Source: Paludibacteraceae bacterium (lineage in GTDB: Bacteria > Bacteroidota > Bacteroidia > Bacteroidales > Paludibacteraceae). From it: 12,233 nucleotides of DNA. Each line of letters begins with the position of its first letter. Position 1 is the first letter of the stretch. Below are positions 3,094 to 12,233 of the stretch, one piece after another. The position numbers and the translations under genes are program-made. The stretch covers positions 1-12,233 of the forward strand of contig JAGPGR010000028.1 in the NCBI GenBank assembly GCA_018055865.1, given 5' to 3'. The notes under the pieces were generated by a model. That model had not been told where the DNA came from. It worked only from the letters and a program-made list of their open reading frames with translations, and ran no database searches.

Positions 3094-4131
3094 TCAAGTA
3101 GTTAATTCGGATGCGAAAGTTGAATAAGATACGAACCATTCGTGAAATTTCGTTATTCCTGTTTCGATAGAAGTGGATGGTTTGTAATCAAAATCGTGTT
3201 GTAAATGTGTAGTATCTGCAAAAGTGGCTATTACGTCTCCCGGTTGCATATCTTCCAGCGTAATTATTGCTCTTTTTCCGGTTGTTTTTTCAATTATTCC
3301 AATAAAATCCATCAGTGCAACAGGCTGCGAATTACCCATATTGTAAATTTCATACGGTATTTTTTTCTCCGGCGGTGATGGTATGATTTTCAGAATTCCT
3401 TTTACAATATCATCAATAAAGGTGAAATCTCGTTGCATATTACCCTGATTGAAAACCCGTATCGGCTGTTCGTTCATTATGGCATTCATAAATAATGAAG
3501 GTGCCATATCCGGTCTTCCCCAGGGACCATACACCGTGAAAAATCGTATTCCGGTTGTAGGAACCGAGAAAAGATGGCTGTAAACATGCGCCATCAGTTC
3601 ATTTGCCTTTTTGGTGGCAGCATAAAGGCTTGCGGGAGTATCGGTCGCGTCGGTTTCCCGGTAAGGAATGTTGGCGTTTAATCCGTAAATGCTGCTGGAA
3701 CTGGCATAAACCAGATGTTTTATTCCGAAATTCCGGCAATTCTCCAGCAGATTTTCGAACCCGGCAATATTCGAACTGATATATGTGTCTGGATTTTCGA
3801 GTGAATACCTCACACCCGCCTGAGCGGCCAGATGCAGAATGTGTGTGAATTTTTCGTTTTCAAATAAGGTTGCCAAGGCATTTCGATCGGTTATATCCAG
3901 TTGGACAAAGCTGTAAGAACTATTTTTTGAACTGCCAATTAATTCACCCGGCTTTATATCATTTCTCGAAATACCGGCATCCGACAATCGGGCATATTTC
4001 AGATTTACTTCATAATAAGCGTTGATATTATCCAGTCCGATGACCCGATATCCCGCTTCTGTCAGTGCTTTGGCTGCGTGGTATCCGATAAATCCGGCAG
4101 CTCCTGTTACGAGGATTTTCATTCTATTCAT
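3094..4131 (-). CDS. UDP-glucuronate 4-epimerase-like NAD-dependent sugar epimerase
   Basis: A 345-residue extended short-chain dehydrogenase of the NAD-dependent epimerase/dehydratase family. The Rossmann glycine motif GAAGFIG is at residues 10-16, the serine of the catalytic triad lies in ASSSSIYG (143-150), and the YxxxK pair is Tyr170/Lys174 (YAATK). The segments AAQAGVRYS (102-110), RFFTVYGPWGRPDMA (196-210) and MQRDFTFIDDI (232-242) are characteristic of the UDP-glucuronate 4-epimerase group (LpsL, WbnF, Cap1J type), which interconverts UDP-glucuronate and UDP-galacturonate in the cytoplasm. The ATG at 4131 overlaps the TGA of the upstream glycosyltransferase gene in an ATGA, supporting translational coupling; a second ATG at 4122 would start directly at MKILVTG. 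It is the last gene of the four-gene operon and probably supplies its sugar donor. Subfamily is likely but not proven; another UDP-sugar epimerase remains possible. Confidence 0.88.
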   Translation of the reverse strand: MNRMKILVTGAAGFIGYHAAKALTEAGYRVIGLDNINAYYEVNLKYARLSDAGISRNDIKPGELIGSSKNSSYSFVQLDITDRNALATLFENEKFTHILHLAAQAGVRYSLENPDTYISSNIAGFENLLENCRNFGIKHLVYASSSSIYGLNANIPYRETDATDTPASLYAATKKANELMAHVYSHLFSVPTTGIRFFTVYGPWGRPDMAPSLFMNAIMNEQPIRVFNQGNMQRDFTFIDDIVKGILKIIPSPPEKKIPYEIYNMGNSQPVALMDFIGIIEKTTGKRAIITLEDMQPGDVIATFADTTHLQHDFDYKPSTSIETGITKFHEWFVSYSTFASELTT

Positions 4132-5693
4132 TTTAGCACTACAATGTAGTAATTAACACCGAGGTAACGCTCTTTGTTTTCAATCAATGCCGCTAATTCG
4201 TTGTCCGTTTCCACTCTTTTCCGTTCGACGATGAGTAACTCGTTGGTATTGAGTTTACTGCTCAATTCTTCGAGAGTGACTTCCTGAACTTTTTCACCCA
4301 GAAAAACATCCATGCTCACCGAGCGCCTTATTTTATAGGTATTATAACCGGTTGTTTTATTTTTTTCCGAAATAGTTTTAGCCTCTTTGCACACATCAGC
4401 GAAACCCAGTTGCGGATTTATTTCTTTCAGCGACCAACCCACTACAAACAGCGTCAGGAAAAGCCCGAAAGCGAATGCTTTTATTGTGAGATATATGTCT
4501 TTCTGCTTGTAAATGAGAATAATACCGACAATTCCTGTGAGTGATAAAATGCCGGTTCCTGCATATATCAAAGGCAAACGAAGGTACGCAAGTTCGGCAT
4601 TTTGAGTGGTGACGATTATCAATCCGGGCAGAGCCGCAGCAAAAATTACAGCCGGAATAACCAGCGAAAGAGCCATCCACTTGTTCCAGGAGTATTTACG
4701 CAGTTGTAATGCAGAGAAATAAGCGAGAAAGGGCAGGAGCGGAACCAGATAGATAGCCAGTTTGGAGCTAAATAACGACAGCATCAGGAAAGTGGCGCCA
4801 AAAGTTATCAGGAAAAACCACTCAACATCCGTTTTAATTTTTTTGTAATACAGACTCGCAGCCGTTAAACCGATAAAAAGGAACGACCAGGGAATGACAG
4901 AGTACCAGATTGACAGGCCATAGAAATAAAACGGGGCTTTGTGATGGAATGAATCCACGGCGCGCCCTACTGTTTGATGAAATACCAGATTGTTCAGATA
5001 TTCTGTTCCGCCTTCGGCCAATACACCGGCAAACCAGCCTCCGAATAGCACAAGCAGAATAATCCACATTTTGGCTCCCCAGTATTTTCCCCACGATTTG
5101 AGTTGCTTTTTGAAAATTAAAAAAGCGATAGTGGAAACCAGCGGCATCAGTATTCCTACCGGACCTTTGGAGAATACGGCCAGAAACACTAAAACAGGAA
5201 ATAACCAGGTATCTTTTCGGGTGGAAGTGCCGGAATAAATCTGATAGAAAGTGTACAGTGCCAGCACAATAAACATAGTCATCAGCATATCCATCCGCAC
5301 AATTGGTGTAGATCCCAGAAACAGCGCGCTGCTCATCAGCAGCAACTGCGCAGCGGTTAGATCTTTCTGTTCCGTTTCGTTTTTCACCCACTTATTCAAC
5401 ACCATTAAAATGACTATGGCCGGAATAAACGAAAGTAACGACAAAAACCACATTTGATGCCCGCCGAGCACTTGTTTACCAATCATCATCAGCCAGAAAA
5501 ACAGTGGCGGTTTATCGGCGTAGGGCACTCCCTGATGGCTGAAAGTGAAGAAAGTGCCGTTTCGCAGCGCCTCGTCAACAATGCTCAGATACCTCAGTTC
5601 GTTGCTTGGCGTGTAATCGCGAAGAAGCATGATGGGCAACAGGGCAATTAACCAGATAAAATTCAGGTAATTAGTCTTGATTTGTAATTTCAT
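4128..5693 (-). CDS. ArnT-like GT39-type membrane glycosyltransferase
   Basis: A 521-residue integral membrane protein with roughly ten or more hydrophobic segments and a soluble C-terminal part (from about residue 430). It resembles the PMT/ArnT superfamily (GT-C fold), which takes a sugar from a polyprenyl-phosphate carrier and adds it to lipid A, core or protein on the outer face of the inner membrane. The first extracytoplasmic loop after helix 1 carries RDYTPSNELRYL (25-36), at the place of the usual acidic DE-x-RY motif, with Asn-Glu here. It is followed by the family hallmark YADKPPLFFW (58-67). Its start overlaps the end of the LAB_N gene by 23 bases and its stop overlaps the epimerase start by 4, so translation is probably coupled. 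With a GT2 synthase upstream and a UDP-glucuronate epimerase downstream, a uronic acid is the best guess for the sugar. Substrate and acceptor are inferred. Confidence 0.88.
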   Translation of the reverse strand: MKLQIKTNYLNFIWLIALLPIMLLRDYTPSNELRYLSIVDEALRNGTFFTFSHQGVPYADKPPLFFWLMMIGKQVLGGHQMWFLSLLSFIPAIVILMVLNKWVKNETEQKDLTAAQLLLMSSALFLGSTPIVRMDMLMTMFIVLALYTFYQIYSGTSTRKDTWLFPVLVFLAVFSKGPVGILMPLVSTIAFLIFKKQLKSWGKYWGAKMWIILLVLFGGWFAGVLAEGGTEYLNNLVFHQTVGRAVDSFHHKAPFYFYGLSIWYSVIPWSFLFIGLTAASLYYKKIKTDVEWFFLITFGATFLMLSLFSSKLAIYLVPLLPFLAYFSALQLRKYSWNKWMALSLVIPAVIFAAALPGLIIVTTQNAELAYLRLPLIYAGTGILSLTGIVGIILIYKQKDIYLTIKAFAFGLFLTLFVVGWSLKEINPQLGFADVCKEAKTISEKNKTTGYNTYKIRRSVSMDVFLGEKVQEVTLEELSSKLNTNELLIVERKRVETDNELAALIENKERYLGVNYYIVVLK

Positions 5694-6321
5694 TTGTTTT
5701 ATGATTATGTCCCAGAATGATATTGCGGCTATAGGCTACAAATCCAAAAGCTTGTCCGACTATGAGTACCGGATCCAGTCGGATGATGGCGTATATGATG
5801 ATAATAAATGAACCGACCAGACTAATAATCCAGAAGCCAATGGGCAGAAGCGATTCGTGTTTTCGGGAAGAATAAAGCCACTGATATACAAATCGAAGTG
5901 CAAAAATCAACTGACCCAACGAACCGAAAACAACCAACCAGATAGGAATATTGTCGTTTTTGAAGAAATTAGAGATATAAACCGGAAGATTATTCAACAT
6001 CAGACCGAAAGCAACCACGGGAGTTATTATCAGAACGAATTTGAGTATTTTGTGCAGTTTAGGCCAAATGCCGTGGATATTGAGATTCCACAGATAAATG
6101 TAATATGAAACCAATTGGCCGAGTATGATGGAAAAATCGTCGCGCAGCACGCCGTAAATAAACAGCAGATAGGAACCGATAATGCTCAGTAACCAGAAAA
6201 AAGGCGGCGCCATCACTTTTTTGGCTTTTTCGGACACAATCCACTGATACAGAATGCGTCCCGAGAAAAATGCCTGTGCTAAAAATCCGATGACATAGAC
6301 GAAAAGTTGTTGCCAGGTCAT
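5671..6321 (-). CDS. Duplicated LAB_N-domain membrane protein, SWEET-like, putative lipid-linked sugar flippase
   Basis: A 216-residue membrane protein made of two LAB_N (lipid A biosynthesis N-terminal, PF07578) units, residues about 5-81 and 126-202, joined by a further hydrophobic helix at about 92-109. The units align without gaps at an offset of exactly 121 residues: Q16/Q137, R22/R143, YQW 25-27/146-148, FW 42-43/163-164, GS 49-50/170-171, R60/R181, D62/D183, GQ 68-69/189-190, N79/N200. Three helices per unit plus the linker gives a 3+1+3 plan, as in SWEET transporters; as I recall, LAB_N is grouped with the MtN3/PQ-loop families. The ATG at 6321 lies one base past the GT2 stop; an in-frame TTG at 6345 would overlap the GT2 end and is less likely. 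Position between a polyprenyl-phosphate-sugar synthase and its transferase suggests it flips the lipid-linked sugar, as ArnE/ArnF do in enterobacteria. Domain call firm, function inferred. Confidence 0.86.
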   Translation of the reverse strand: MTWQQLFVYVIGFLAQAFFSGRILYQWIVSEKAKKVMAPPFFWLLSIIGSYLLFIYGVLRDDFSIILGQLVSYYIYLWNLNIHGIWPKLHKILKFVLIITPVVAFGLMLNNLPVYISNFFKNDNIPIWLVVFGSLGQLIFALRFVYQWLYSSRKHESLLPIGFWIISLVGSFIIIIYAIIRLDPVLIVGQAFGFVAYSRNIILGHNHKTNEITNQD

Positions 6322-6322
6322 A

Positions 6323-7066
6323 TTACTCAATATTAGTATCGCCAACCTTGTAGTTGATATATCTTTTTTTCATCCAGCGGAAAGCAAAACAATCCAGGAA
6401 GGGTGACAGGAGGCGGTTCCACAAATTAAATTTTGAAAGACCGGCCGTGCGCGGATAATGTCTTACAGCAATCTGTTTCACTTCCCCTTTTTGCAACTGT
6501 ATGAGTGCCGGCAGAAAGCGATGCATCCCGTTGAAAAACGGAACCCGTTTGGCATATTCCGTTTGTATTACCTTCAACGGGCAGCCCGTATCTTCCACAC
6601 CATCATTTGTCATCATTCTACGGAAGCCATTGGCTATTCTGGATTGAATTTTTTTGAAAATGCTGTCTTTTCTGTTGGCACGAATGCCCATCACCATAGC
6701 ATAATCGGGAATATCTTTCAGCAGCAGGTTGAAATCATCGGGATCGGTCTGCAAATCGGCATCAATATAACCAACAAAATCGGACTGGCAGTAATCTATT
6801 CCGGCTTTGATGGCAGCGCTTAACCCGGCATTTTGCTCAAATTCCAGGTAAAAAAAATCATTGCGGCGGGAACAAATATCATGAATGAAGCGGCTGCTGT
6901 CGTCTTTCGAGCCATCATTTACAAATATGATACATGCCGGATACAGAGAATGAGACAAAAAATGGCTCAACCGGTTTTCAAGCGCGGTCATATTTTCCTG
7001 CTCGTTGTAAACCGGAACTACAATTGAAAATTGATAATCTTTAGTGCGGTTAGGGATATATTGCAT
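6323..7066 (-). CDS. GT2 glycosyltransferase, polyprenyl-phosphate sugar synthase type
   Basis: A 247-residue GT-A fold family 2 glycosyltransferase of the dolichyl-phosphate-mannose synthase / ArnC / RgtE type. It transfers a sugar from a nucleotide donor to undecaprenyl phosphate on the cytoplasmic face. Motifs in order are VVPVYNE (16-22), VNDGSKDDS (49-57), the metal-binding DADLQTDPDD (102-111), DTGCPLK (159-165), FFNGMHRFLPAL (177-188) and the R-x-AGLSKF segment (206-213). These are hallmarks of the polyprenyl-phosphate subgroup. Unlike ArnC or GtrB it has no clear pair of C-terminal membrane helices, so it should be soluble or peripheral, as Dpm1-type enzymes are. It is the first gene of a tightly packed operon with the LAB_N protein, the ArnT-like transferase and the epimerase. 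The ATG at 7066 leaves a 125-base spacer to the trpA stop, which holds a promoter-like box. Confidence 0.91.
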   Translation of the reverse strand: MQYIPNRTKDYQFSIVVPVYNEQENMTALENRLSHFLSHSLYPACIIFVNDGSKDDSSRFIHDICSRRNDFFYLEFEQNAGLSAAIKAGIDYCQSDFVGYIDADLQTDPDDFNLLLKDIPDYAMVMGIRANRKDSIFKKIQSRIANGFRRMMTNDGVEDTGCPLKVIQTEYAKRVPFFNGMHRFLPALIQLQKGEVKQIAVRHYPRTAGLSKFNLWNRLLSPFLDCFAFRWMKKRYINYKVGDTNIE

Positions 7067-7090: not shown

Positions 7091-7098
7091 CAAAATTA
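7091..7098 (-). promoter_or_regulatory. Putative -7 promoter box of the GT2-LAB_N-GT39-epimerase operon
   Basis: The minus strand reads TAATTTTG, an exact TAnnTTTG match, 24 bases upstream of the GT2 start. This would give a leader of roughly 20 bases. The -33 region is only partly matched (a TTT about 20 bases further upstream). The box suggests the sugar operon has its own promoter and need not depend on trp transcription. Confidence 0.45.
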
Positions 7099-7191: not shown

Positions 7192-7962
7192 TTAGTTATC
7201 CAGCTTTTTCAATACTAATTTCACAGCTGATTCAATGTCGGAAGTTTCGTTCAGTGCTTTGATAAATGCACTGCCTACAATGGCTCCGGATGAATTTTCG
7301 AAAACCATTTCTTTTGTCGCTTTGTTTGAAACACCAAATCCAATCAACCTGGGATTTTTCAGATTCATGGCATTGATTCGCTTGAAGTAATCGATTTGAT
7401 TGATGAATGAGTTTTGAGTACCTGTAACTGCAGCCGAAGAAACCATGTAGATAAATCCGTTGGTGTTTTCATCTATTTCCCGAATGCGTTCGTCGGAAGT
7501 TTCGGGTGTAATCAGAAAAATGAATTCCAATCCGTATTTCTCGGCAATAGGCTTGTAATCAGTCAGATAGTCGGACATTGGAAGATCGGGAATAATCATT
7601 CCGTCCACATCTACCCGTTTGCATTCACGGCAGAATTCTTCGAATCCGAATTGCATGATCGGATTCAGATAACCCATCATTACCAATGGAATTTCAATTT
7701 TTCTTCGTACATCGGTCAGCTGACTGAAAAGCCGACGAATACTCATCCCGTTTTTCAAAGCAGCATGACTGCTTTGCTGAATCACCACGCCATCGGCCAT
7801 CGGATCCGAAAAGGGAATGCCGATTTCAACCAGTTCGATACCATTGTCCTGAAGTGCCTGAAGAATAGGAACAGTGTCATCCAACCCAGGAAAACCGGCT
7901 GTGAAATAGATAGAGAGAATGTTTTTGTTTTTCTTCCGGAATAATTTATTTATTCTGTTCAT
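7192..7962 (-). CDS. trpA: Tryptophan synthase alpha subunit
   Basis: A 256-residue TIM-barrel enzyme that cleaves indole-3-glycerol phosphate to indole and glyceraldehyde 3-phosphate, passing indole to the beta subunit. The family signature LVEIGIPFSDPMADG spans residues 44-58 and contains the catalytic Glu46 and Asp57, equivalent to E. coli Glu49 and Asp60. FIYMVSSAAVTGTQ follows mid-protein, and the phosphate-binding loops IGFGVS and AIVGSAFIK lie near the C-terminus. Length is slightly below the E. coli protein (268). The start overlaps the last 17 bases of trpF. trpB, the obligate partner gene, does not lie between trpF and trpA here; in Bacteroides-type operons it heads the cluster, outside this window. 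trpA is the last trp gene; an AT-rich hairpin follows it. Confidence 0.97.
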   Translation of the reverse strand: MNRINKLFRKKNKNILSIYFTAGFPGLDDTVPILQALQDNGIELVEIGIPFSDPMADGVVIQQSSHAALKNGMSIRRLFSQLTDVRRKIEIPLVMMGYLNPIMQFGFEEFCRECKRVDVDGMIIPDLPMSDYLTDYKPIAEKYGLEFIFLITPETSDERIREIDENTNGFIYMVSSAAVTGTQNSFINQIDYFKRINAMNLKNPRLIGFGVSNKATKEMVFENSSGAIVGSAFIKALNETSDIESAVKLVLKKLDN

Positions 7963-8602
7963 CGTCGTTTTTTTCTTTTGGTTTGTTCAGTTCTTCAATA
8001 AATTGACGAATTAATGCTGCGTTTTTCAGCCCGGGTCTGATTTCAAACTTGCTGTTTAAATCAACTCCGATCATTCTCGGATGTTCAATTTTCCGGATAG
8101 CTTTCACATCGTCTGCTGAAATACCGCCGCTCAACAAGAAGTTTTTTTCGCCTTGATAATCATGCAGGATATTCCAGTTGAACTTTTGTCCCGAACCGCC
8201 GTGAAGATCGGTTTTTGTGTCGAAAAGAAATAAATCGGCCGCATCTTCGTAATCCTTCGTAACTTTCAGGTTGTAGGATGCCATTATCGGAAAAACCTTG
8301 ATAACCATTGTTTTAGCCTCTTCTTTTATTTCCAGGCAAAGCTTTTTGTTGTCGGCACTATGCAGCTGAACAGCATCCAGGTCGTATTTATGAATGCAGG
8401 TCAGGATATTTTCCAGATTTTCATTCACAAAAACACCTGCTTTTTTGATTGAAGCCGGCAAAGCATTCAGTAAGCCTACATCCAGATTTTTCGCAAAACG
8501 GGGTGAATTCTGATAAAAGATAAAACCCATGTAATCCGGTTGCAAAGCCGCAATTTCACGGATGTTTTCGGGCTCACGCAGACCGCAGATTTTGATTAGC
8601 AT
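7946..8602 (-). CDS. trpF: Phosphoribosylanthranilate isomerase
   Basis: A 218-residue single-domain TIM-barrel enzyme that converts N-(5-phosphoribosyl)anthranilate to the carboxyphenylamino-deoxyribulose phosphate by Amadori rearrangement. The catalytic cysteine is Cys6 in KICGL (4-8) and the catalytic aspartate is Asp128 in FDTK (127-130). Phosphate-binding segments are GGSGQKFNW (135-143), LSGGIS (157-162) and GVDLNSKFEIRPG (179-191), the last being the family C-terminal signature. It stands alone and is not fused to trpC as in E. coli. Its charged C-terminal tail overlaps the trpA start by 17 bases, so the two are probably translationally coupled. A G/C-rich repeat lies 12 bases upstream of the start codon. 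Confidence 0.96.
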   Translation of the reverse strand: MLIKICGLREPENIREIAALQPDYMGFIFYQNSPRFAKNLDVGLLNALPASIKKAGVFVNENLENILTCIHKYDLDAVQLHSADNKKLCLEIKEEAKTMVIKVFPIMASYNLKVTKDYEDAADLFLFDTKTDLHGGSGQKFNWNILHDYQGEKNFLLSGGISADDVKAIRKIEHPRMIGVDLNSKFEIRPGLKNAALIRQFIEELNKPKEKNDDEQNK

Positions 8603-8614
8603 AAATAATTTGAA

Positions 8615-8636
8615 GCCATCTAACCCCCAAAACAGG
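8615..8636 (+). repeat. G/C-rich palindromic repeat, copy 2 (before trpF)
   Basis: GCCATCTAACCCCC followed by AAAACAGG, a diverged copy with its GCC end facing trpF. It pairs in inverted orientation with the copy at 8695-8718, so the two bracket most of the trpC-trpF spacer as a 104-base unit. Confidence 0.6.
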
Positions 8637-8694
8637 AATTATAACGGGCGGTTTATAAGTAGTTAAAGTAATCAAATTTTGTTCATTCCACTTT

Positions 8695-8718
8695 CTCTCA
8701 CGGGGAGATTCAGGGGGC
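8695..8718 (-). repeat. G/C-rich palindromic repeat, copy 3 (end of trpC)
   Basis: The minus strand reads GCCCCCTGAATCTCCCC then GTGAGAG. The first bases encode the final Pro and the TGA stop of TrpC. It is the inverted partner of the copy at 8615. Confidence 0.72.
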
Positions 8719-9570
8719 TGTCTGTATAATAAACTCACGCAAAGCATTCGCAGGATTTTCTTCTTTCATAAAATTTTCGCCCATCAGAAACCCCTGATAG
8801 CCATATTCCCGGAGTTCCATCACTGTTTCAGGCTTAGAAATCCCGCTTTCGCTTATTTTTGCAAATTCAGCCGGAATTAACCCGGCCAATTCTTTTGAAA
8901 TGTTGGTGTTGACTTCAAATGTTTTCAGATTCCGGTTGTTAACACCAACTATATCAACGAATTCGTTTATGTGCTCCAATTCCTGCTTGTTGTGAATTTC
9001 CAGCAGTACTTCCATACCCAGCGATTTTGCCTGTTTACCCAACGATTTCGTTTTCTGAGGAGTAAGAGCAGCAGCTATGAGCAAAATCACATCCGCACCC
9101 CATGCTTTGGCCTCAAAAAGCTGGTATTTGTCCACAATGAAATCCTTACGTAATATCGGGCAAGAAACATGAGGTCGTGTTAATTTCAAATCCTCGGGCT
9201 TTCCGCCGAAAAACAGCTCATCGGTCAGGATTGAAAGGCCGGAAGCACCTGCCTCAGCGTATCCTGTTGTGATTTCAAGCACATTGGCGTTTTCATGAAT
9301 CCATCCTTTCGACGGAGATTTCCTTTTAAATTCAGCAATAATACCCGAATCGGAGGCTTGCAAATTATCTTTCAAAGATATACATTTTCTCCGGAAAAAT
9401 GGCTCAATTTCAAGTTCCAAAATCGTTTTTAGCTGCCTACTTTCATAAATTTCCAGTTGTTTTTGGCTAATTATGTTATCCAGTATATTTCCTGCCCCCC
9501 TATCTCCAAAAGGGGGTGTTTGAATTTGTATTTCGGAATTCACTTTTTCATTCAATTTTCTTACTTTCAT
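8710..9570 (-). CDS. trpC: Indole-3-glycerol phosphate synthase
   Basis: A 286-residue TIM-barrel enzyme that closes the indole ring, giving indole-3-glycerol phosphate. Signatures are EFKRKSPSKG (80-89), LTDELFFGG (115-123), ILRKDFIVD (139-147) with the catalytic lysine, VGVNNRNL (208-215), ISESGIS (239-245) and GFLMGENFM (260-268). The canonical family start, of the form ILDNII, begins only at residue 29; the first 28 residues are an extension containing QTPPFGDRGAG (17-27), encoded by a G/C-rich repeat. No ATG or GTG lies in frame between residue 1 and the family start, so the ATG at 9570 is the best start. The C-terminal Pro and stop are also repeat-encoded. The gene is separate from trpF, unlike the fused E. 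coli trpCF. Confidence 0.95.
   Translation of the reverse strand: MKVRKLNEKVNSEIQIQTPPFGDRGAGNILDNIISQKQLEIYESRQLKTILELEIEPFFRRKCISLKDNLQASDSGIIAEFKRKSPSKGWIHENANVLEITTGYAEAGASGLSILTDELFFGGKPEDLKLTRPHVSCPILRKDFIVDKYQLFEAKAWGADVILLIAAALTPQKTKSLGKQAKSLGMEVLLEIHNKQELEHINEFVDIVGVNNRNLKTFEVNTNISKELAGLIPAEFAKISESGISKPETVMELREYGYQGFLMGENFMKEENPANALREFIIQTAP
9494..9522 (+). repeat. G/C-rich palindromic repeat, copy 4 (inside trpC)
   Basis: GCCCCCCTATCTCC, then AAAA, then GGGGG and TGTTTG. It lies within the trpC N-terminal codons and is translated as QTPPFGDRGA. A decayed inverted partner may sit at about 9634-9652, at the trpD end (CACCTTAACCTTC on the minus strand), but that resemblance is weak. 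Confidence 0.75.
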
Positions 9571-9639
9571 TTTTGTGAAAATCTTTCTTCGTTTTTTTCT
9601 GTAATTTTTTTAAAATACGCCAATAAACGACTTTGAAGG

Positions 9640-10638
9640 TTAAGGTGTGTATATCTCAATAAACTTTTCAAAAGCTATTTTGGCATTTCCGCTTTTTAAT
9701 GATTCAAGCGCTTCTGCCTTGCATTCTTCAATCGACTTTTCGGGACAAAGTGTCTGAATAGCAAAAGCGGCATTGATTACCACTGCATTGTGTTGCGCAT
9801 CGGTAGCATTGCCATTCATTATATTCATAAAAATTTGGGCAGCATCTCCCACTGTTTCTCCTCCCCACAGTTCTGTTTGTTCAATCCGTTTGAATCCCAA
9901 TTCTTCGGGTTCGTAAACGGTTTCACCAAGTGAATTAGTTACTTTGCAGGTTGTGGTCAGCGAAATTTCATCGTATCCATCCAGCGTGTGAACAATGGAA
10001 TAGTTGGTCCCCAGACTCTGATAAATATAATTGTACAATCGCATCATTTTTAGATTGTAAACGCCCAGACATTGATAATTAGGCCGAAGCGGGTTGATAA
10101 GCGGACCAAGCACGTTGAAAAAAGTCCTCACACCGATATTTTTACGCACACCGGCCACATTTTTCATAGCCGGGTTGCACAAAGGTGCATGCAGGTACGT
10201 AAATCCCGAATAATCAATGGCTTTTTTCAAGACACTCATATCTGTAGTAAATTTTGCCCCGTAAAATTCCAATACATTGGAAGATCCGCTCACGGAAGTT
10301 GCACCGTAATTTCCGTGTTTTGCTACTTTGTAGCCTGCACCGGCAAGCGCAAAGCAGGCGCAGGTAGAAATATTGAATGTGTTTTTTCCGTCGCCACCGG
10401 TTCCAACAATGTCAATCGGATCAAATTCCGATAGATCTGCTTCAATTGCCATATCGAGTAAGGCATCCCGGAAACCGATGATTTCGTTCAGTTCGATGCT
10501 TCGCATGATGAAAACAGAAATGAATGCTGCAATTTGCGATTCGTTGTATTTTCCTGCAGCAATACTCGTCATAACTTCGGCTGCTTCACTACGTGTAAGT
10601 GATTGATGTTCAAAAAGTTTATTTAATATTTGTTTCAT
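9640..10638 (-). CDS. trpD: Anthranilate phosphoribosyltransferase
   Basis: A 332-residue enzyme that joins anthranilate to PRPP in the second step of tryptophan synthesis. It has an alpha-helical N-terminal domain (about 1-70) and then the phosphoribosyltransferase domain. Motifs are the PRPP-binding IVGTGGDGKNTFNIST (77-92), KHGNYGATSVSGSSN (107-121) in place of the enterobacterial KHGNRAVSSKSG form, and the anthranilate-site segment GVRKNIGVRTFFNVLGPLIN (162-181) with a conserved Arg at 164. Length is normal. The ATG at 10638 is preceded by AGGAGG six bases upstream, the best Shine-Dalgarno sequence I see in the operon; it lies in a G/C-rich repeat. It is not fused to trpG, unlike E. coli. 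Confidence 0.97.
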   Translation of the reverse strand: MKQILNKLFEHQSLTRSEAAEVMTSIAAGKYNESQIAAFISVFIMRSIELNEIIGFRDALLDMAIEADLSEFDPIDIVGTGGDGKNTFNISTCACFALAGAGYKVAKHGNYGATSVSGSSNVLEFYGAKFTTDMSVLKKAIDYSGFTYLHAPLCNPAMKNVAGVRKNIGVRTFFNVLGPLINPLRPNYQCLGVYNLKMMRLYNYIYQSLGTNYSIVHTLDGYDEISLTTTCKVTNSLGETVYEPEELGFKRIEQTELWGGETVGDAAQIFMNIMNGNATDAQHNAVVINAAFAIQTLCPEKSIEECKAEALESLKSGNAKIAFEKFIEIYTP

Positions 10639-10641
10639 TAA

Positions 10642-10668
10642 GCCCTCCTGACCTCCCTGAAGAGGGAG
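10642..10668 (+). repeat. G/C-rich palindromic repeat, copy 5 (before trpD)
   Basis: GCCCTCCTGACCTCCC, then TGAA, then GAGGGAG. Internal arms CTCCCT and AGGGAG can pair. On the minus strand it contains AGGAGG close to the trpD ATG, so it doubles as the ribosome binding site. Inverted partner at 10713-10733, making a 92-base unit across the trpG-trpD junction. Confidence 0.7.
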
Positions 10669-10712
10669 AAAAAGAATTTAGTTTTTAGTATATAATGTTT
10701 ATGCTCTTAAAA

Positions 10713-10733
10713 TCACCCTTCGATTTAGGGGGC
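10713..10733 (-). repeat. G/C-rich palindromic repeat, copy 6 (end of trpG)
   Basis: The minus strand reads GCCCCCTAAATCGAAGGG. Its first bases encode the Ala-Pro-stop of TrpG, the stop being the TAA inside the repeat. Inverted partner of the copy at 10642. Confidence 0.7.
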
Positions 10734-11378
10734 CTGTAACCAGTTTTTCAACATCTGCTCTCCTTGAGGTGTTAACACCGACTCCGGATGGAATTGCACG
10801 CCGTGAACGTTGTATTTTCTGTGTTTGAGTGCCATAATCATTCTGTTTTCATCCATTGCCGTTATTTTCAGGCAATCGGGCAATGTCCCGGAATTCACTG
10901 CCCAGGAGTGATACCGCCCCACATTGAGCGTGGCAAGCATGTCGTAAAATAAAATATCATCATCGATTACATTTATTTTGGTAGCTACTCCGTGGTAAAC
11001 ATCCGACAGATTGATCAGACTTCCGCCGAAGGCTTCTGCTATTGCCTGATGGCCAAGGCAAACTCCCAGAATGCTCTTGGTAGGGTAGTAGGTGCGTATC
11101 ACATCTAGCAAAATTCCCGATTCATGCGGTAGTCCCGGTCCGGGAGAAAGAATGATTTTATCAAAACGGTCAATTTCATCCAACGAGATTTTGTCGTTGC
11201 GGTGAACTTCCACGTCGGTATAACCCAGATTTCTGACGGCATGAACCAAATTGTAAGTGAATGAATCGTAGTTATCGAAAACAAGGATACGGACTCCTGA
11301 ACTTGCCCCCCAACCCCCTAAAGGGGGAGTTTGAGAGTGCTTGTTTGAATTTTCTGTGTAATCGTTATCTTTTCTCAT
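10725..11378 (-). CDS. trpG: Anthranilate synthase glutamine amidotransferase subunit
   Basis: A 217-residue class I glutamine amidotransferase that supplies ammonia to TrpE for anthranilate synthesis. The triad is Cys107 in GVCLGHQ (105-111), with His197 and Glu199 in QFHPES (195-200). The oxyanion-loop segment LSPGPGLP (77-84) and the N-terminal VFDNYDSFTYN (33-43) are typical of TrpG/PabA. The family normally begins at about residue 30 here; the preceding 28 residues form an extension whose QTPPLGGWGAS (16-26) is encoded by a G/C-rich repeat. No ATG or GTG lies between 11378 and the domain, so the extension seems real. Position directly after trpE makes TrpG more likely than PabA, although one protein may serve both pathways. 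Confidence 0.95.
   Translation of the reverse strand: MRKDNDYTENSNKHSQTPPLGGWGASSGVRILVFDNYDSFTYNLVHAVRNLGYTDVEVHRNDKISLDEIDRFDKIILSPGPGLPHESGILLDVIRTYYPTKSILGVCLGHQAIAEAFGGSLINLSDVYHGVATKINVIDDDILFYDMLATLNVGRYHSWAVNSGTLPDCLKITAMDENRMIMALKHRKYNVHGVQFHPESVLTPQGEQMLKNWLQAP
11305..11329 (+). repeat. G/C-rich palindromic repeat, copy 7 (inside trpG)
   Basis: This is the best-formed copy: GCCCCCCAA, then CCCCCTAAAGGGGG with arms of five C and five G around TAAA, then AG. It is read through in trpG as PPLGGWGA. Inverted partner at 11448-11470; the pair spans 166 bases across the trpE-trpG junction and includes the trpG start codon. Confidence 0.85.
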
Positions 11379-11447
11379 GTAGTTTTTTATGAAAATATTT
11401 AAAAAGTGTGATTCTGTTTTTACACTGTCGAATAAAGCTTTTTAATT

Positions 11448-11470
11448 CTCCCGTCAGGGATTTAGGGGGC
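11448..11470 (-). repeat. G/C-rich palindromic repeat, copy 8 (end of trpE)
   Basis: The minus strand reads GCCCCCTAAATCCC, then TGAC, then GGGAG. It supplies the Ala-Pro-stop at the end of TrpE. Inverted partner of the copy at 11305. Confidence 0.78.
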
Positions 11471-12233
11471 AATTTCCGATAACTGTATTGCTTTTTTCAG
11501 CGCCGCCAGTTTATTATTTACTTCCTGCAATTCAGTTTCCTCGTCAGATTTGCTCACAATACCTGCTCCGGCCTGGTAATAAAGAGTATTTTTTTTGCTC
11601 ACAAACGAGCGAATAGTGATAGCCTGATTGAAACTTCCGTCGAAACCTATGTAGCCGATGCAACCGCCGTAAGGTCCGCGGTCGTGTGGTTCCAGTTGGT
11701 CAATCAGCTGCATGGCTCTGATTTTAGGTGCCCCCGACAGCGTTCCGGCAGGAAAAGTATCGGCAAAAAGTTTGATTATTTTAGTGTCAGGGTTGAGTTT
11801 CCCGCTTACGCTCGAAACCAAATGAAGTACATGCGAATAGTATTGGACTTCGCGAAATACGTCGACCTCCACATGGCTGCAGTTTCTGCTCAGATCGTTG
11901 CGGGCCAGATCAACGAGCATCACATGTTCGGCATTTTCTTTCGGATCGGATTCCAGTTTTTCGGCCAGTTCCAGGTCTTTTTCATCGTCACCGGTCCGGC
12001 GGAAAGTTCCTGCTATGGGTTTAATGTGAGCTTGACGGGTCTTTGCATTTACTACCAGATGTGCTTCGGGTGACGACCCGAATATCCGAAAATCACCAAA
12101 ATTAAAATAATAAAGATATGGAGATGGAGTGTTAGAGCGCAGATTGCGGTAAAGCGTGAAGTCATCTCCCTTGTATTTTTGGTAAAATCTACGTGAAAGT
12201 ACAATCTGAAAAACATATCCTTTGTGGCATTCT
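11462..12233 (-). CDS. trpE: Anthranilate synthase component I (5' end outside the window)
   Basis: The last 256 residues of TrpE; the frame stays open to the window edge, so the N-terminal part and start lie beyond it. This is the chorismate-binding domain that makes anthranilate from chorismate and ammonia. Motifs in order are FQIVLSRRF, NTPSPYLYYF, GSSPEAHL, IKPIAGTFRRTGDD, MLVDLARNDLSRN, HVLHLVSSVSG with the catalytic-type histidine, FPAGTLSGAPKIRAM, GPYGGCIGYIGFDG, AGAGIV, and the Mg-site acidic stretch DEETELQE near the end. A GTG at 11923 is an internal Val codon, not a start. The final Ala-Pro-stop falls in a G/C-rich repeat. Adjacent trpG, trpD and trpC make TrpE rather than PabB the likely identity. 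The tryptophan feedback site and any leader or attenuator are out of view. Confidence 0.95.
   Translation of the reverse strand, partial: ECHKGYVFQIVLSRRFYQKYKGDDFTLYRNLRSNTPSPYLYYFNFGDFRIFGSSPEAHLVVNAKTRQAHIKPIAGTFRRTGDDEKDLELAEKLESDPKENAEHVMLVDLARNDLSRNCSHVEVDVFREVQYYSHVLHLVSSVSGKLNPDTKIIKLFADTFPAGTLSGAPKIRAMQLIDQLEPHDRGPYGGCIGYIGFDGSFNQAITIRSFVSKKNTLYYQAGAGIVSKSDEETELQEVNNKLAALKKAIQLSEIAP

Follow-up and report, generated by a model that had tools for sequence, protein, structure and literature searches.

The galacturonate (GalA) pathway of Rhizobium, with LpsL and the ArnT-like proteins RgtA-C, is one of the described systems closest to the four-gene unit reported here. The unit lies in a window of 12,233 nucleotides (the whole stretch that was analysed, JAGPGR010000028.1, which is contig C289 in the 2.24-Mb, 88% complete draft genome of a Paludibacteraceae bacterium) and encodes a family 2 glycosyltransferase (GT2), a membrane protein with a duplicated LAB_N domain, an ArnT-like transferase and an epimerase. 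We consider that these genes probably specify a three-component extracytoplasmic glycosylation system for a lipid-linked uronate, equipped with its own donor enzyme. We know of no LAB_N partner in the Rhizobium GalA pathway. There, rgtD, rgtE and rgtF provide a polyprenyl-phosphate-GalA synthase and transferases that place GalA on lipid A (PMC7663294). Judged by description and not by sequence, LpsL-RgtE-RgtA-D resemble the window unit in joining a polyprenyl-phosphate-GalA synthase to GalA transferases, whereas the window has a single operon with a dedicated SWEET-like protein.

The likeness to the Arn (Pmr) system is of another sort. Among solved structures the GT2 is nearest to ArnC, and the transferase has the predicted fold of ArnT and keeps equivalents of its Tyr43, Lys69 and Arg254. 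The window differs in having an epimerase instead of the enzymes for 4-amino-4-deoxyarabinose, LAB_N instead of ArnE/F, a GT2 devoid of transmembrane segments and Asn at the position of ArnT Asp55. More generally, three-component systems consist of a lipid-linked donor synthase, a carrier and a GT-C transferase, the carriers being of the GtrA/SMR or MATE type (PMC11127046). Both GtrA-GtrB-Gtr and the MATE-flippase/GT136 pentofuranose system share with the window a lipid-linked monosaccharide synthase, a membrane carrier and a GT-C transferase, but the window carrier is SWEET-like, and in most cases (41 of 60 loci) the unit includes a donor epimerase. A known kind of system would here be extended by one new-looking part, a carrier type not named beside GtrA/SMR and MATE in the accessible part of that source (PMC11127046). 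SemiSWEETs, SWEETs and the PQ-loop family, MPDU1 included, have been described (PMC3281891); LAB_N recalls them in its predicted 3+1+3 topology, its profile similarity to SemiSWEETs and its weak MtN3_slv matches (23 of 23 members), and departs from them in carrying x-Arg for the Pro-Gln (PQ) motif in both halves. The comparison with MPDU1 is by description only.

Conservation of the four-gene unit

All four genes are on the minus strand. The GT2 gene (6323..7066; 247 residues, PF00535, DADLQ motif), a predicted polyprenyl-phosphate uronosyltransferase, is separated by one base (+1) from the ATG at 6321 that opens the LAB_N gene (5671..6321, 216 residues). This predicted flippase and/or anchor matches PF07578 in two stretches (193.7 bits), with repeat 1 at 6079..6291 (101.6 bits) and repeat 2 at 5719..5925 (104.2 bits). 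The gene for the ArnT-like GT-C (ArnT/PMT-like) transferase (4128..5693; 521 residues, PF13231 at 37.1 bits) overlaps it by 23 bases and is in turn overlapped by four bases, ATGA, by that of an NAD-dependent epimerase of the UDP-glucuronate 4-epimerase type (3094..4131; 345 residues, PF01370/PF16363). An earlier reading made from the sequence alone (the first-pass annotation) had claimed an operon of these four genes with junctions of +1, -23 and -4; coordinates and Pfam matches bear out the operon, and the same junction values were measured.

We scanned named genomes and kept the best 80 of 569 relatives, a sample biased towards the kin of the window and not independent. Together with the window they give 81 loci, of which 60 were evaluable (at least 3.0 kb before and at least 3.5 kb after LAB_N) and 21 were dropped for short flanks; the nearest are in metagenome-assembled genomes labelled Bacteroidales, uncultured Paludibacter and Bacteroidia. 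With profile matches above 350 bits, the genes for a synthase, a membrane carrier and a GT-C transferase were linked nearly throughout, the GT2 being present in 59 of the 60 loci and the ArnT-like gene in 60; the epimerase was found in 41, and all four genes in 41. The order GT2, LAB_N, transferase, epimerase occurs in 30 of the 60 loci and four other arrangements in 11, five arrangements in total. Since gene order varies while linkage persists, joint function rather than inherited order is argued for, and this survey upholds the earlier view of a co-conserved functional unit. No further protein family occurs near LAB_N in more than nine of the 81 loci.

Within the genus, LAB_N was found in three of seven other genomes, each with the four genes in order (one epimerase is cut by a contig end), and the epimerase (E 1e-60) occurs in 4/4 genomes with LAB_N against 0/4 without it (Fisher p 0.03). 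A search of 28 genomes gave the epimerase at the same threshold in 13 of 16 with a double LAB_N, in two of 11 without and not in the single one with a partial LAB_N (G047); in some of the 13, such as G044, G286, G136 and G109, it lies away from LAB_N. The distribution of the unit is patchy, as none of the 29 genomes from other genera of the family gave a match in a single-protein search. LAB_N was matched in 44 of the 296 genomes that sampled the phylum; it is double in 11 (ten and our own), all belonging to the class, and in the other 33 it is single, with weak E values of 8e-8 to 1e-3.

Two background controls were made. For the first, loci of the carrier GtrA in the same order were used (66 places listed, 40 fetched, up to 6 kb on each side, some ended by the contig), with thresholds laxer than those of the locus count: tblastn above 150 bits against a profile above 350 bits. 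The epimerase was found in none of the 40 (Fisher p 1.8e-13 against 41 of 60, relatedness ignored), and a transferase match in four. The second control used ten loci of relatives that match the ArnT/PMT-like protein weakly and have no adjoining LAB_N (four shorter than 10 kb; in L252 the match itself was not recovered); at E 1e-4 and within up to 6 kb, epimerase, UDP-glucose dehydrogenase (Ugd), GT2 and LAB_N were found in 0/10.

Some loci show further features. At L052, from the cultured Bacteroides luti, all four genes are present. In five of the 81, e.g. L049 (3371-4129), a protein resembling PAP2 phosphatases by eye lies at most 5 kb from LAB_N. In the genome G051 an epimerase homolog interrupted by three in-frame stops lies immediately ahead of a Ugd homolog (C4:90511-92570), and the LAB_N locus of that genome, L028, has no adjoining ArnT-like match.

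Plasmids from Fusobacteriota, Alphaproteobacteria and one Paenibacillus carry the linkage too, so that the "Bacteroidota version" of the first-pass annotation was drawn too narrowly. LAB_N matches 18 plasmid records, and tblastn within about 5 kb found the GT2 in 16 and the epimerase in 12 (Cetobacterium 2, Paenibacillus 1, Paracoccus 5, Hymenobacter 2, Phocaeicola 1 and Ilyobacter 1, the last at 135 bits and cut at the end of the stretch). On the two Hymenobacter plasmids the epimerase is on the opposite strand; no GT2 match was found in the fetched stretch of either, that of Hymenobacter sp. HDW8 (L170), where the LAB_N halves are annotated as two adjacent genes (4965-5633), or that of Hymenobacter radiodurans (L167). 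A nucleotide-sugar dehydrogenase is present in five of the 18 loci, being 45-47% identical to the Ugd homolog of the window genome in Cetobacterium (2) and Paenibacillus (1) and 29% in Paracoccus versutus (2); the tested Cetobacterium enzyme is closest to the UDP-glucose dehydrogenase TuaD, under its cut-off. In Cetobacterium the genes for GT2, LAB_N, epimerase, dehydrogenase and a GT39 are consecutive, and the cluster is, as read from sequence, the whole predicted route from UDP-glucose. The Paenibacillus plasmid has dehydrogenase, epimerase, GT2 and LAB_N, with no transferase match found. LAB_N is single, with 91-111 residues, in the 12 annotated records of Fusobacteriota and Alphaproteobacteria, which is what pairing of two SemiSWEET-like copies would lead one to expect.

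In seven of the 18 plasmid records (L161, L162, L163, L164, L167, L170 and L171) annotated genes for a response regulator and a sensor kinase or ATP-binding protein adjoin the LAB_N module, four records being unannotated there; by analogy with PmrAB/Arn, such neighbours hint at a regulated envelope modification. A phage origin was considered as well. A single-protein scan of viral contigs gave none, and an alignment scan gave one contig, L160, a 9.5-kb IMG/VR entry listed as viral only by its source, in which GT2, LAB_N and epimerase are consecutive (553-2933).

The LAB_N protein and the linked GT2

The AlphaFold2 model of the LAB_N protein (predicted local distance difference test, pLDDT, 84.4) has a 3+1+3 topology, with helices at residues 3-33, 40-59 and 63-82, a linker at 91-110 and 112-120, and helices at 127-154, 161-181 and 184-215. 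With E values up to 1 its profile retrieves eight entries of the SemiSWEET/MtN3 kind, four of them below 0.01 and the best at 5.9e-5; among the entries is 4qnd, presumably a SemiSWEET. Weak MtN3_slv matches, with E values no higher than 1, were obtained for all 23 LAB_N members; the best has 4e-5, and that of the window protein (0.0088) is under the cut-off. The PQ motif belongs to the first helix of each half; in every one of the 83 rows its Gln is replaced by Arg (positions 22 and 143), the register being taken from the alignment in repeat 1 and from internal likeness in repeat 2. Of 24 checked positions, 20 are invariant in all 83 rows and in both halves, and an invariant set of Arg, Asp, Gln and Asn sets LAB_N apart from the SWEET/PQ-loop proteins. 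On profile and model grounds LAB_N is SWEET-like. Kinship with EamA, ArnE/F or GtrA was rejected, as none of these is among the eight Pfam families found for the 23 members at E up to 1.

All LAB_N-linked GT2s (80 sequences) lack a hydrophobic C-terminal segment (Kyte-Doolittle, KD, threshold 1.6 over the last 150 residues; highest value 1.23), as do six of six from other genera (KD up to 1.34). Among ten GT2-like proteins from GtrA loci, seven exceed KD 1.6, including the five best-scoring (313-324 residues, KD 2.4-3.1), and three do not. ArnC and GtrB have C-terminal transmembrane helices. The solved structure nearest to the window GT2 is that of ArnC (9hwj, 5.7e-23), in keeping with the ArnC-like GT2 of the first-pass annotation, followed by sll0501 (5eke, 1.2e-16); the D-x-D motif reads DADLQ in 62 of 80 sequences, DADMQ in 15, DSDLQ in two and DADSQ in one. 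DPM2 and DPM3 dock DPM1 (PMC4281381). Given the missing hydrophobic segment, LAB_N may by analogy dock the synthase as well.

The earlier attribution of flipping to LAB_N needs amending: the protein is SWEET-like, no ArnE/F- or GtrA-type family was recovered for it, and a GT2 without transmembrane segments allows an anchor role too. In the open-licence literature we found no LAB_N function, flippase or other, in print. We put forward, tentatively and at less than even chances, that LAB_N proteins are a separate class of bacterial flippases for polyprenyl-phosphate sugars, with a SWEET/PQ-loop fold made specific for uronates by the Arg that replaces PQ, and that the trio of GT2, PQ-loop protein and GT-C is the counterpart of DPM1, MPDU1 and PMT/ALG.

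The NCBIfam model PRK01021 (lipid-A-disaccharide synthase, 610 positions) matches the window at 5671-6321 through its positions 8-212 (85.7 bits, under cut-off), so that some LpxB proteins seem to carry an N-terminal double LAB_N.

Nucleotide sugar, acceptor and surroundings

The solved protein closest to the epimerase is 5u4q (1.6e-107), deposited as a dTDP-glucose dehydratase, followed by Bacillus cereus UGAepi (6zl6, 5.8e-48), 6pmh ("UDP-glucose 4-epimerase related", 9.1e-38) and MoeE5 (3.7e-34). The depositors' name does not suit the window protein, which has ASSSSIY where two other rows of short-chain dehydrogenases/reductases have VSTDEVY, presumably a dehydratase-like motif. A GalE-type epimerase was also discarded: among solved proteins named UDP-glucose 4-epimerase, 4zrm scores 2.8e-32, others are weaker, and 1lrk, which we take to be Escherichia coli GalE, gives 9.7e-20. 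In UGAepi the carboxylate is bound by positions 126-128, Thr178 and Arg185 (PMC7984243, PMC12338863). The corresponding Ser145-Ser147, Thr199 and Arg206, together with the catalytic Tyr170 and Lys174, are the same in all 49 near-complete epimerases linked to LAB_N, the residue mapped by alignment to B. cereus position 126 being Ser, not Thr. With a UGAepi relative that keeps these residues, the predicted UDP-glucuronate (UDP-GlcA) 4-epimerase type is supported.

The supposed completeness of the operon was not sustained, since it depends for its UDP-GlcA on a homolog of UDP-glucose dehydrogenase whose gene lies outside it, on contig C235. The contig end truncates this Ugd homolog, which is closest to TuaD, under its cut-off. 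It is the sole PF03721 protein above cut-off in three of the four LAB_N-bearing congeners (our own genome G000, G002 and G007), and G004 has four, counts that rest on drafts of 80-93% completeness. Free-standing epimerases adjoin a TuaD-like dehydrogenase in G286 and, in G044, one closest to the UDP-glucose dehydrogenase PRK15057. In a quick tree those of G286, G136, G067, G167, G109 and G206 form one group (SH-like approximate likelihood ratio test 99) nested among LAB_N-linked rows, and that of G044 stands elsewhere on a long branch. As far as these sequence comparisons go, GalA is the likely sugar, ahead of GlcA and of an N-acetylated uronate.

The transferase model (pLDDT 90.7) matches ArnT best among solved proteins (sequence 2.6e-15, Foldseek TM-score 0.80, Z 35.7; next Pmt4, Z 26.1), and the predicted ArnT-like GT-C fold spans its whole length, in line with the ArnT-like GT39 of the first-pass annotation; the protein is below the cut-off of the ArnT NCBIfam equivalog (73 versus 567 bits). 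Tyr43, Lys69 and Arg254 are needed in Burkholderia cenocepacia ArnT (PMC5377068). In the window's type (type A, 66 of 79 rows) they are kept in 65, 65 and 66 rows, the remainder being gaps. A second type (type B, 13 of the 79 rows, split by score; 16-18% identical in six aligned) has Lys at the Lys69 position in 13/13, Asn at Tyr43 and Arg at the Arg254 position in one of 13. Seven of the 13 type B loci have the epimerase. As the donor half stays constant while the transferase is exchanged, different acceptors are suggested by the sequences. Lipid A as the acceptor is suggested only by analogy, through the kinship with ArnT.

Type B loci are L056, L062, L063, L067, L073, L086, L087, L098, L102, L103, L106, L110 and L111. 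Most aligned type B proteins share the motifs IMESRN and LEKPPLPTW, and the gene mostly precedes GT2; in L056 it is on the other strand, and in L063 it follows LAB_N, with a type A gene also present.

In the window, the GT2 gene is preceded by trpE-G-D-C-F-A (7192-12232), with no trpB between trpF and trpA, and trpA lies 125 bases before it. A promoter-like box, TAATTTTG (7091..7098, minus strand), was read from the sequence upstream of GT2; we take it to have the form of the Bacteroidota -7 element, consensus TAnnTTTG. Two congeners (L025 and L026) keep trpA, the nitroreductase gene after the epimerase and the box in the same position. In L032, a close relative with an 88% identical LAB_N, the four genes are present, with no trpA in the preceding 7 kb and no box at that place. 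Because the box is kept in L025 and L026, though not in L032, the four genes may form a unit with its own predicted promoter. On the far side (240-2827) are a plus-strand pair, DUF47 (PhoU-like) and a PHO4-family phosphate transporter, and then the nitroreductase on the minus strand. No RNA elements or tRNAs were found in the window at the gathering threshold.

Proposed route and its alternatives

In the route that we favour, a UDP-glucose dehydrogenase encoded elsewhere in the genome would make UDP-GlcA, which the epimerase would convert to UDP-GalA. The GT2 would put the uronate on polyprenyl phosphate at the inner membrane face; the SWEET-like LAB_N protein would carry the lipid-linked uronate to the outer face and may also hold the GT2 at the membrane; and the ArnT-like enzyme would move it to an outside acceptor, probably lipopolysaccharide (LPS; lipid A-core) or another envelope glycan. 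What the sequences establish is that the genes are present, ordered and conserved together, along with their families, predicted folds and key residues; the activities, GalA as the sugar, the direction and the acceptor are deduced from these.

Several findings weigh against this route. An intact adjacent epimerase is missing from 19 of the 60 loci (in L051 it is split into two open reading frames) and from six of the 18 plasmid loci (Thalassospira 1, Azospirillum 4, Pelagovum 1), and three of 16 double-LAB_N genomes (G132, G178, G262) have none at E 1e-60. A GT2 match above 60 bits was present in only five of the 40 GtrA loci, so that the background of comparable design is 0/5. The best Foldseek hit of LAB_N is a G protein-coupled receptor at E 0.16, with none under 0.001. 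The best NCBIfam model for the epimerase is GalE, below cut-off (146.7 versus 262.3 bits). The position of ArnT Asp55, whose numbering and catalytic role we assume, is Asn in 64 of 66 type A rows (two gaps) and Met in 13 of 13 type B rows. The free-standing epimerases of G109 and G206 adjoin TviB-type UDP-GlcNAc dehydrogenases and share the carboxylate motif, and at the LAB_N locus L088 a TviB-type gene follows 3 kb beyond the epimerase; as the same motif occurs beside TviB-type genes, it leaves room for an N-acetylated uronate. In the 81 loci, whose neighbour clusters were read by eye, nothing adjacent connects the operon with LPS genes.

The TviB-type genes bear on the sugar. It could be GlcA used directly, or GlcNAcA or GalNAcA (N-acetylated uronates) with the epimerase acting on UDP-GlcNAcA, as the loci without an adjacent epimerase and Klebsiella GlaKP, titled as having "extended substrate specificity" (cited in PMC7984243), would also allow. 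We hold this to be distinctly unlikely, for the Ugd homolog is the only PF03721 protein above cut-off in the drafts of our own genome, G002 and G007, in Cetobacterium and Paenibacillus the epimerase has a Ugd homolog next to it, and six free-standing epimerases form their own supported group nested among the LAB_N-linked ones in the quick tree. Somewhat less improbable, yet still doubtful, is that LAB_N serves as membrane anchor or activator of a soluble GT2, as DPM3 does for DPM1, and that an unrelated or general flippase moves the lipid-linked uronate. The missing hydrophobic C-terminus (80/80 and 6/6, versus its presence in 7/10 GtrA-locus proteins), the GT2 gene near LAB_N in 59 of 60 loci and weak, chance-level DPM3 matches in two of 23 LAB_N members point that way; but an anchor would hardly need seven helices of the SWEET type, nor the invariance of 20 of 24 checked positions across both halves, and no other recurring neighbour family offers itself as a flippase. 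The two roles are compatible.

The acceptor leaves more room. There is a substantial chance, short of even, that the true target of the ArnT-like protein is a capsule, wall or secreted polysaccharide, or a protein glycan, and that lipid A is not involved at all. A wider cluster including genes for lipid A or capsule was sought by reading the 25 commonest neighbour families by eye and rejected, none exceeding nine of the 81 loci; the lack of a recurrent LPS neighbour, the donor part of the module in Paenibacillus, which as a member of the Bacillota has no LPS, and the swapped-in second transferase type all favour such an acceptor. On the other hand, ArnT, which acts on lipid A, is the best match among solved transferases, and the Bacteroidales units are not among recurrent capsule genes. 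Such an acceptor would leave the lipid-linked uronate mechanism untouched.

If LAB_N does the job proposed here, a function would be assigned to a widespread protein whose name refers to lipid A, and from the compact operon a decoration with acidic sugars could be predicted for many bacteria within Bacteroidota and beyond. The bacterial trio, if real, would also provide a simple system in which the role of MPDU1 could be tested, a bacterial model for the MPDU1 question.

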